Source: a candidate division TA06 bacterium (GTDB lineage: Bacteria; Edwardsbacteria; AC1; EtOH8). From it: 64,000 bases of DNA. The DNA is taken from the NCBI GenBank assembly GCA_016235665.1, contig JACRJI010000011.1:1-64000 (forward strand), in the 5' to 3' direction. The position numbers and the translations under genes are program-made. Below, piece after piece: positions 36,582 through 48,974 of this stretch; the first letter of the stretch is position 1; the number at the start of each line of letters is the position of its first letter. A model generated the notes under the pieces. It saw nothing but the letters and a program-made list of their open reading frames with translations. It was not told the DNA's origin and did no database searches.

Positions 36582-36950
36582 ATGGCAGCGTTGACCGAAG
36601 CCCAAAAACGTTCCTTTAACCGCCAGATGGAAGAGGTGATGACCAGCAGCAAGGACGTCTTGAAGAAACAAGGCCTCGACGTCACGCCCAAATTGAAACT
36701 GCTCAAGGAGAAGAACATCAATTCGGAGAAAGCGGAGGAGGCCCAGCTTAAAGCCATGGCCGAGGTCAAGGCCAAGACCGCCGCTTCGGTCAAAATGACC
36801 ACCGAAGCCTACGCCCTGGCTTCAGCCCAGTTGGATGCTATAGTCGGCAGCCTGGGGAAGGACCACACCCTCTCCCAAAAACTCAAGAAAATGCGGGAAT
36901 CCATGTCCAAAACGGCCTCCAGGGGCGTAAAAAAGGCCAAAACCCAGTAA
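36582..36950 (+). CDS. Small helical protein of unknown function, linked to a 21-bp array
   Basis: A 122-residue Lys/Ala/Glu-rich, almost certainly all-helical protein with a very basic C-terminus (KTASRGVKKAKTQ) and no signal peptide or membrane segment. AAAGGAAA precedes the start. It matches no family I know. Its last three codons and stop (AACCCAGTAA) coincide with the first unit of the 21-bp palindromic array at 36941. A basic helical protein next to a phased palindrome array suggests DNA binding, but this is inference. Compare the gene at 47885 next to a second 21-bp array. Confidence 0.75.
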   Translation: MAALTEAQKRSFNRQMEEVMTSSKDVLKKQGLDVTPKLKLLKEKNINSEKAEEAQLKAMAEVKAKTAASVKMTTEAYALASAQLDAIVGSLGKDHTLSQKLKKMRESMSKTASRGVKKAKTQ

Positions 36951-37222
36951 ATACCCCTAAAATAGAGGGTTACAAGGGTTCTAACCAAGGTTATAAGGCT
37001 TGAAACCCAGGTTAGGAAGGTTCTAACCCAGGTCAGAAGGGTTCTAACCAAGGTTGTAAACGATCTAACCCAGGGTAGAAAGGTTCTAACCTGGGTTGGC
37101 AGGGTTCTCCCCCAGGTTAGGGAGGTTCTAACCAAGGTTATAAGGAATCTGTCCGAGGCCGGTAAGATTCTAACCTTGGTTGGCGGGGTAATCGGGGTTT
37201 TAAAAGGATTTAACCAAAATCG
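36941..37222. repeat. 21-bp-period array of AACCNNGGTT palindromes
   Basis: Units start at 36983, 37004, 37025, 37046, 37067, 37088, 37109, 37130, 37151 and 37172, every step exactly 21 bp. Degenerate in-phase units lie at 36941, 36962 and 37193, and an off-phase AACC at 37212. Each unit opens with a 10-bp near-palindrome (AACCAAGGTT, AACCCAGGTT, AACCTGGGTT, AACCTTGGTT) followed by about 11 bp ending GGTTCT. Units differ by substitutions and not by length. The minus strand is open in one frame (a VRTxLTW-type heptad), but I regard that as a by-product of the 21-bp period. Confidence 0.9.
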
Positions 37223-37340: not shown

Positions 37341-37368
37341 TTGACATAAATCTTATTTATGGTATAAT
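37341..37368 (+). promoter_or_regulatory. Consensus sigma-70 promoter for the DUF2723-hypAB operon
   Basis: TTGACA (37341-37346), 16 bp, TATAAT (37363-37368): both boxes are perfect. It lies about 80 bp upstream of the start at 37449. Confidence 0.85.
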
Positions 37369-46632: not shown

Positions 46633-47184
46633 ATGACAATGCTATTCCGGGAAGACAAGGCCACCCAAACCGCCGCGCGATTTTTGGAATTGGGTGGCGG
46701 GAAAATGGACATCATTAAACTGGTGAAACTGATCTATTTGGCGGAACGCGAGGCTATCGTTCGCTGGGGCAGCCCCATCATCTATGATAATTACTGCTCA
46801 ATGCGTTTAGGACCAGTGCCAAGCCTAACCTTAAATCTGATCAACGGTACTTATGATATCGTACAACCCAAGTACTGGCAAACGTACATTGCTGAACGTG
46901 AAGGTCACGCAATACGATTAAAGAAGAGAAAAACGCCGAATGACCAATTATCCCGTGCCGAAGAATCCCTTATTAGCGAAATATATGGCAAATACGGGAA
47001 GATGGATAAATGGAAACTCAGCAAATATACCCATAAATTACCGGAATGGAAAGACCCCGATGGCTCAAGCCTGCCAATATCAATAAGCGATATATTGACC
47101 TCAGAGGGTTACAACAAAGATGATATTAATGAAATTAAAAATTCAATAGCTGCACAGGCAGCAGCGAAAGCTCTACTAGGTTAA
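46633..47184 (+). CDS. Panacea-domain (PanA/DUF4065) antitoxin
   Basis: A 183-residue protein with the SocA/Panacea domain (about 12-160): GGKMDIIKLVKLIYLAERE, then GPVPSLTLNLINGTYD. Panacea is known as an antitoxin domain that pairs with many unrelated toxins. The stop is 3 bp from the next start, the layout of a toxin-antitoxin operon. The antitoxin role here is inference from family and context. Confidence 0.85.
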   Translation: MTMLFREDKATQTAARFLELGGGKMDIIKLVKLIYLAEREAIVRWGSPIIYDNYCSMRLGPVPSLTLNLINGTYDIVQPKYWQTYIAEREGHAIRLKKRKTPNDQLSRAEESLISEIYGKYGKMDKWKLSKYTHKLPEWKDPDGSSLPISISDILTSEGYNKDDINEIKNSIAAQAAAKALLG

Positions 47185-47187
47185 CTC

Positions 47188-47580
47188 ATGAGAGTCGGCG
47201 ATACGTTCCTGATGCATCTGCCCGGTTCAGCGAGTAAACCGTATTACCATCTTTTCATCGTTCTGACCGACCCCGAGCCTGGCACGGGTAAGTTAGTCGC
47301 GGTGATGGTACAAACAGCCCAGGATCACACCGAAAAGACGGTTGTGCTGCAAAAAGGCGAACACCCATTCGTCAAGCAACCCACCTCGGTGCAGTATACA
47401 CACGCGGATTATTACTTTGCGTCCAAAATAGTGAAAGCGTTTGCACGGAACATTTGTCATAAGCAAGCTAGTTTGGATGCCGCAGTTTTGGATAAAGTAA
47501 GAAAAGGCCTGCTCGCATCAACACACACACCTAATTCCATTCTGGAATATTGCCGCACGAAATTTCAAACCCCTCCATAG
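47188..47580 (+). CDS. Putative toxin partner of the Panacea protein
   Basis: A 130-residue protein, family not recognised. A beta-rich first half (RVGDTFLMHLPGS, KPYYHLFIVLTDPEPG, LVAVMVQTAQDHTEKTVVL) and a helical second half give a loosely PemK/MazF-like fold impression (start VGDTFLM, P before the second strand), which I cannot confirm. Its position directly after PanA and the terminator at its stop make it the toxin candidate. Confidence 0.6.
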   Translation: MRVGDTFLMHLPGSASKPYYHLFIVLTDPEPGTGKLVAVMVQTAQDHTEKTVVLQKGEHPFVKQPTSVQYTHADYYFASKIVKAFARNICHKQASLDAAVLDKVRKGLLASTHTPNSILEYCRTKFQTPP

Positions 47581-47884: not shown

Positions 47885-48601
47885 ATGATAACTGAACTGG
47901 GCAAGGAGGAACTGATAGTCATCGGTTCAAGGTTCTCGGGCAGCGGTTTGGTGGAGCAGGGCGGCTACACGCTGGGCATCGCTACGGCACAGGGTAAAGG
48001 CATCACAAACCTGCTTCCTCCGAAGTATGTGGAGGAGGTAGCGGCGGTAAGGGAAGAGGTGCGGGAGGCGGCCAAGGACAAGGAGGCCACCGCCCAGGAA
48101 TCCAAGTTCGCCACCTCGGCCCAGAACGAGGCCATCCGCAAAGCCAAGGTCTGGATGCGCCGGGTGGTAAGACGGGCCAAAAGGGCCATGCACATGGGCA
48201 AGCAGGTGCCGGATACCCTGCTGAAGATGGTATCCAACGCCAAGCTGAAGGAGTTCGCCCAGGCCATAGACATGATGGTCAAGGATTTTGACAAGTATGC
48301 GAGCAGCATGTCCAGCAGCGACAACGCCGCGCTGTTAACCGAGGGAAAGACCTTAGCCAAGGAGTTGCTGGCCGCAGATGCCGACCAGGAGATCAAAAAA
48401 ATGAGCCAACTGCCCCAGAAAGTGCGGGAGTATTATTACAAAAAGGGGCTGTTGTACAAGGGTTTGAAGGTGATCAACGAGGCGGGAAGGGAATTGTTCG
48501 TTAACGAGCCGACCCTGGCCGAGACCTTCAATTTCAAGATACTGTACCGGAACTATACCAACCATAAGGGTGAAGCCGTAAAGGAAGAAACCAAGCCATA
48601 G
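47885..48601 (+). CDS. Helical protein of unknown function, linked to a second 21-bp array
   Basis: A 238-residue protein with no signal or membrane segment. After about 45 residues it is almost wholly helical and strongly basic in one stretch (AIRKAKVWMRRVVRRAKRAM, about 82-101), with a KYVEEVAAVREEVREAAKDK coiled-coil-like helix before it. I do not recognise the family. It has its own near-consensus promoter and good ribosome-binding site, so it is expressed. A 12-unit, 21-bp tandem array lies 122 bp downstream. By eye the PPK...LLKM span (71 residues) has the length and Ala/Lys pattern of the TPK...LKKM span (70 residues) in the 122-residue protein at 36582, but identity is low. Confidence 0.8.
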   Translation: MITELGKEELIVIGSRFSGSGLVEQGGYTLGIATAQGKGITNLLPPKYVEEVAAVREEVREAAKDKEATAQESKFATSAQNEAIRKAKVWMRRVVRRAKRAMHMGKQVPDTLLKMVSNAKLKEFAQAIDMMVKDFDKYASSMSSSDNAALLTEGKTLAKELLAADADQEIKKMSQLPQKVREYYYKKGLLYKGLKVINEAGRELFVNEPTLAETFNFKILYRNYTNHKGEAVKEETKP

Positions 48602-48659: not shown

Positions 48660-48722
48660 CCGGGCAAGCAGTATTGTGTTGGAAGTTGTTGCAAAACAGG
48701 CGTTTAGCATCTTGCGTTCACT

Positions 48723-48974
48723 GAAATGCTGCTCACAGGTAGTGAAATGCCCGCCACAGGTGCCATAATGCTGCTCACAGGTAGTGCGAAGTCCGCCGCA
48801 GGCGCGGAAATGCTGCTCACAGGTGCCGAAATGCTCTTCACAGGTGCCGGAAAGCTGCCCACAGCTACTGAAATATCGGCCACAGGTATGGAAATGTCGC
48901 TCACAGGTAGCGAAATGTTTCTCACAGGTAGTGCGAAGTCCACCGCAGGCATGGAAATGTCGGCCAACGCTATA
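48723..48974. repeat. Twelve-unit 21-bp tandem array
   Basis: Units start at 48723 and every 21 bp to 48954 with no length change. A typical unit opens GAAATGCTGCTCACAGGT and ends in a variable 3-nt tail (AGT, GCC, ATG, AGC). Two units (48786, 48933) are GCGAAGTCC variants. Both strands are open in one frame (heptads like EMLLTGS on plus, SISLPVS on minus), as expected of a 7-codon period; there is no ribosome-binding site for a plus-strand product. Between 48975 and 49053 only the ribosome-binding site of the next gene is seen. Confidence 0.92.

Follow-up and report, generated by a model that had tools for sequence, protein, structure and literature searches.

The window, i.e., the whole 64-kb stretch of DNA analysed here, belongs to a 2.7-Mb genome of candidate division TA06 (16 contigs, 100% complete) and carries two arrays of 21-bp repeats. 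Array 1 follows a gene for a predicted helical protein of 122 amino acids (here named family A), and array 2 lies downstream of a 238-aa helical gene of family B. The features are as follows:

36582 to 36950, + strand: A-family gene, 122 aa, open reading frame; predicted helical hairpin that includes a helix of 57 residues; C-terminal tail basic
36967 to 37200, + strand: 21-bp array 1, about 10 to 11 units, consensus GGTTCTAACCnAGGTTAgaAg, palindromic; its syntenic copy is at locus L008
37244 to 37318, + strand: long hairpin terminator after array 1, −59.8 kcal/mol, z −8.9
47885 to 48601, + strand: B-family gene, 238 aa; predicted all-helical, probably two related halves
48707 to 48970, + strand: 21-bp array 2, about 11 units, with boxes CACAGG and GAAATG in each unit, 10 to 11 bp apart; not palindromic

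As originally predicted, array 1 is a real array that proceeds in exact 21-bp steps, and the long hairpin behind it is real as well. Ten AACC-NN-GGTT units had been described between 36983 and 37192. Six of these are perfect copies of AACCNNGGTT in register (at 36983, 37004, 37046, 37088, 37130, and 37172, with spacings that are all multiples of 21), but the positions 37025, 37067, 37109, and 37151 are degenerate, with approximately 1, 1, 2, and 4 mismatches, respectively. Outside array 1, the 64-kb window holds no exact match to AACCNNGGTT; the six copies observed compare with 1.40 expected, and six was reached by no shuffle. No further copy of array 1 that could mark dispersed targets was found in its own genome. 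Tandem Repeats Finder reported periods of 21 (8.5 copies) and 84 (2 copies) without indels, and unit palindromy exceeded that of column-permuted controls (p = 0.001). The single 10-bp box per unit noted earlier is a palindrome but understates the unit, since each unit contains two overlapping palindromes, GGTT-CT-AACC and AACC-NN-GGTT. The start of the array had been placed inside the stop codon (36948 to 36950) that ends the 122-aa gene, and this has to be corrected: the onset lies about 17 bases past it, with the first recognisable unit near 36967.

At the syntenic locus (L008, 1870 to 2160, reverse strand), the helical gene carries a frameshift, and a 7-bp insertion breaks the phase of the array; the hairpin terminator is retained there, with changes that match on both arms. 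In the window, a perfect sigma-70 promoter consensus (TTGACA, a spacing of 16, and TATAAT, with TG ahead of the second hexamer) at 37341 to 37368 precedes a gene for a TMEM260-like protein. A SocA/Panacea-type antitoxin gene and an adjoining 130-aa gene, which may encode its toxin, are located at 46633 to 47580, just upstream of the B gene and its array.

Linkage of arrays to helical-protein genes

Below the domain level, relatives were compared in nine genomes of one taxonomic family, to which A-family homologs are confined in a sample of 386 genomes. All seven intact A genes are followed by a 21-bp array (9 of 10 loci with remnants counted, two degraded copies having an array and a short remnant, L104, having none). 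The same arrangement was found for all six B homologs (E below 1e-30) and, at 13 of 16 loci, for a further family named C (proteins of about 117 aa), with one array weak and one about 0.6 kb off; of the three C loci that lack an array, one has a truncated gene and in another the gene is close to the end of its contig. Among long relatives matching the PQLLE family, two of seven loci have an array upstream, and two genomes show the order B gene, array, PQLLE remnant. In a second lineage, which has only the domain in common with the window genome, multi-copy two-domain relatives carry an array just upstream at about 20 of 27 loci, where arrays were sought beside gene matches only; several of these arrays are AT-rich and less regular. 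Arrays thus follow the genes of families A, B, and C and precede those of the long PQLLE relatives and of the second lineage, a difference that fits no simple operator model.

A lag scan of the window's own genome (2.44 Mb, 90%) returned about seven 21-bp arrays: the two in the window, one behind an A gene (contig 8), one behind a C gene (contig 1), a weak one behind a C gene (contig 14), and two behind unrelated genes for a TPR protein and an amidase. The array directly behind the TPR-protein gene (L162, 13602 to 14165) has 27 non-palindromic units and no recognised superfamily gene beside it, and the other (L218, 18848 to 19057) lies between the amidase gene and an acetyltransferase-like gene and is possibly an orphan. 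About 17 short stretches with imperfect 7-bp periodicity were also seen in this genome (e.g., L124 18355 to 18565, L131 2331 to 2512, and L166 11096 to 11282).

In 1.4 Mb from other phyla (neighbourhoods of TMEM260-like genes), no convincing non-coding 21-bp array was found; one Bacteroidales stretch mixed lags of 14 and 21. At a locus of another lineage (L231, 1441 to 2637, reverse strand), a PQLLE protein reads through in a single open frame into inorganic pyrophosphatase-like sequence, and an array is absent.

The palindrome array originally described at one gene exists, but it represents a single instance of a module with two parts, a small helical-protein gene and its own 21-bp array, which recurs across two or more deep lineages of bacteria. 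The module is patchily distributed, some of its copies are broken, and genomes hold many of them, which suggests an accessory element that turns over quickly. A phage or plasmid origin was rejected, as no relatives of the helical genes were found on viral contigs and a plasmid search with two relatives gave no match. Membership of a defence family was rejected, with just weak matches to ZorA-type coiled coils.

Conservation and symmetry of the repeat units

The 21-bp period is constant between paralogs, and the unit sequence is wholly different, as illustrated by the consensus units GGTTCTAACCnAGGTT, TTTCCCCtTGGGGAAA, GAACGGGACCGTT, TTGCAAGCAA, GAAGATCTTC, and CACAGGTnnTGAAATG, which have no common sequence. 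Arrays are roughly 5 to 27 units long, with a mean pairwise unit identity of 42 to 71% within an array. Among 55 arrays with 573 units in total, two had sustained phase shifts, a count biased toward in-phase arrays because array borders were set by lag-21 similarity.

A comparison between related genomes had been proposed as a check on binding sites, and it gave conserved arms or boxes and drifting connectors between orthologs. For the C-family ortholog arrays L278 and L279 (gene dS 0.49), 12 differences were counted across the 13 columns of the palindrome core and 27 across the 8 of the spacer; the sole length change inside the array was 42 bases, i.e., two units. Between array 2 and its ortholog L126, the boxes CACAGG and GAAATG had 0 to 3 differences per column and the connectors 4 to 8. 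Unrelated arms were found between paralogs only, and these units are mostly still palindromic. The gene dN/dS was 0.09 for A (versus L004), 0.21 for B (versus L126), and 0.06 for C, a range of 0.06 to 0.21 across the three families. As judged from these substitution patterns, purifying selection acts on the helical genes and also on the boxes inside the units. Column conservation showed a 10.5-bp rhythm that was no more than suggestive (p = 0.08 against a run-preserving control that keeps block structure).

Unit palindromy was further compared with the architecture of the adjoining protein. In profile comparisons, the N-terminal half of PQLLE matched its C-terminal half with 94.7% probability, A matched C with 94.8%, and the PQLLE C-terminal half matched C with 77%; reversed decoys reached at most 1.6%. 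By these matches, the long PQLLE relatives look like internal duplications related to the single domain, and weak profile matches (46.8% and 22%) suggest an internal duplication in the B protein as well. Against column-permuted controls, palindromy had a mean z of 3.47 for single-domain proteins (16 independent arrays) and 0.46 for two-domain proteins (26 arrays). The contrast (Mann-Whitney 1.7e-6, Fisher 5e-5; Mann-Whitney 8e-5 when restricted to the taxonomic family of the window) emerged from the data, and most of the arrays used to test it were those in which it had been noticed. For palindromy, p < 0.05 was not reached by four of the single-domain arrays (cL277, cL280, cL284, and cL290). 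In this set of arrays, the comparison shows that unit symmetry tracks predicted protein architecture, with two-fold symmetric units beside single-domain proteins and asymmetric units beside the longer, duplicated ones.

Proposed binding and alternative readings

We propose that each array provides private, cis-linked double-stranded DNA sites for the helical protein of the adjoining gene. A homodimer, or a covalent pseudo-dimer, would occupy each unit, and successive units would share one face of the DNA because 21 bp correspond to two helical turns. The long helices could let neighbouring proteins pack, so that a filament would extend along the array. Overall, each helical protein probably occupies its own array in dimeric or pseudo-dimeric form and assembles into a phased nucleoprotein filament that would be centromere-like or iteron-like in form, not in family. 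As to the cellular role, our best guess is a nucleoprotein patch that would act like a centromere or as an anchor and would regulate its own gene as well.

That the units are dimer sites on one face of the DNA for the adjoining helical gene was the core of the original prediction, which is partly supported. It agrees with the linkage in all intact homologs, with the arms kept between orthologs, with palindromy found mainly beside single-domain proteins, and with the absence of a conserved reading frame and of RNA wobble, but the protein has no recognised DNA-binding motif. The A, B, and C proteins gave no match over cut-off in Pfam, NCBIfam, PADLOC, and PHROGs. The AlphaFold models are all-helical and of moderate confidence (A protein, pLDDT 84 and pTM 0.47), and the best match in a PDB fold search with them was not better than E 0.3. 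Since no family exceeded its cut-off and no PDB match was better than this value, no recognised DNA-binding element was seen.

This lack would be accounted for if the arrays were bound by another host factor or were a structural DNA element, with the helical gene a linked, non-binding partner, and the two arrays that adjoin unrelated genes fit such a reading. However, a private unit sequence for each paralog in one genome, together with the match between symmetry and architecture, is hard to reconcile with one shared factor, and we consider this explanation unlikely.

The array could also act as RNA, transcribed behind or before the gene, with the protein binding repeated hairpins or with small RNAs as the product. 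Arrays do adjoin genes, array 1 stands ahead of a terminator, and A-family and some C-family arrays fold above shuffles (z −2 to −3 for win1, −4 to −5 for L009, −6 to −7 for L011, and −4 to −5 for L136). Strong folding is, however, confined to palindromic arrays and about equal on the two strands; B, PQLLE, and most second-lineage arrays lack it. Mismatches in the arms show no wobble bias (57 G/T versus 48 A/C, p = 0.44), several palindromes have 2-nt centres that are too small for an RNA loop, Rfam gave no match, and a symmetry that follows protein duplication would not be predicted. A role as RNA therefore appears rather unlikely.

Neutral satellites, in which slippage-born tandem repeats accumulate at these loci, would explain the wide variation of units and the gain or loss of unit pairs seen as 42-bp gaps. 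They would hardly yield a single 21-bp period in dozens of arrays with unrelated sequence, nearly no phase breaks in 573 units, boxes conserved relative to connectors between orthologs, and near-universal linkage to one superfamily, which makes this origin quite improbable. That the arrays encode heptad-repeat peptides (21 bp being seven codons) is very improbable: array 1 has an open frame of 154 codons on its minus strand and 42 arrays hold 75 open frames against 47 expected, but low stop counts are common to all six frames, at least 12 arrays have stop codons in all six (including the array 1 relatives L004, L008, and L013), column conservation has no 3-bp periodicity (p = 0.92), and neither the minus-strand frame nor any other is conserved across homologous arrays.

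Comparable systems and significance

The proposed binding of each array by its own helical protein would work like ParR/parC or TubR/tubC (PMC5016525), with no membership in either, as an RHH or HTH fold and, beside the window arrays, a motor NTPase are absent. In parC, every iteron takes up a single ParR dimer; the resulting complex forms a helical filament and additionally acts as a repressor of its operon (PMC5016525). The likeness to these centromeres, and to those of ParG and omega/parS, consists in a small protein encoded beside tandem repeats. In contrast to ParR/parC-, TubR/tubC-, and omega-type systems, the helical proteins have no RHH or HTH signature (by Pfam/NCBIfam, the all-helical hairpin model, and PDB), and no ParM, TubZ, or ParA motor lies beside the window arrays, whose neighbours encode an NHL/T9SS-type protein, a TMEM260-like protein, SocA/Panacea, and a DUF2130 protein. 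Unlike plasmid centromeres, the modules are chromosomal and multi-copy per genome, with the array downstream for A, B, and C. Compared with one ParR-type dimer per site, the sites here are phased and in tandem, with a symmetry that would fit putative dimer binding.

In iteron replication origins, direct repeats about two helical turns apart lie beside the gene of the Rep protein that binds them. The arrays resemble these in repeat spacing and in adjoining the gene of a putative binding protein, but no Rep initiator domain was found beside them, the unit sequence differs at every locus in one genome, and they are not replicons of their own. CRISPR arrays, like TIGR guide arrays, adjoin a protein gene and have partly conserved, partly variable units. 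Here, unlike in CRISPR, the 21-bp repeats are contiguous and vary by point changes, without a repeat-spacer layout or a Cas-like protein, and Rfam models, CRISPR included, gave nothing above threshold over the arrays, the sole passing match being a tRNA in a flank.

The nearest named family is PQLLE (NCBIfam NF052641). Its 80-bit cut-off is exceeded by the long relatives, but C scores 23 bits and the A and B representatives give no match, so that their relation appears via profile comparison only. PQLLE was not mentioned in the literature searched. Nor were 21-bp arrays tied to helical genes reported in that search, which lay outside most subscription papers and all preprints; the gene-array pairing is undescribed in the literature and databases searched.

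Taken together, the modules may represent a new class of chromosomal protein-DNA modules, a proposal that we regard as evenly balanced. One superfamily would supply a genome with many mutually orthogonal copies, every one of them recognising its own two-turn repeats. Site symmetry would depend on whether the protein has a single domain, acting as a homodimer on a palindrome, or is an internal duplication, acting as a pseudo-dimer on an asymmetric unit. If true, one genome would offer many natural protein-DNA pairs that are orthogonal to one another, and helical proteins lacking any known DNA-binding fold would apparently have rebuilt specificity in every copy. How DNA recognition and site symmetry evolve could then be tested directly, and a function would be indicated for uncharacterised helical genes, including the PQLLE family.
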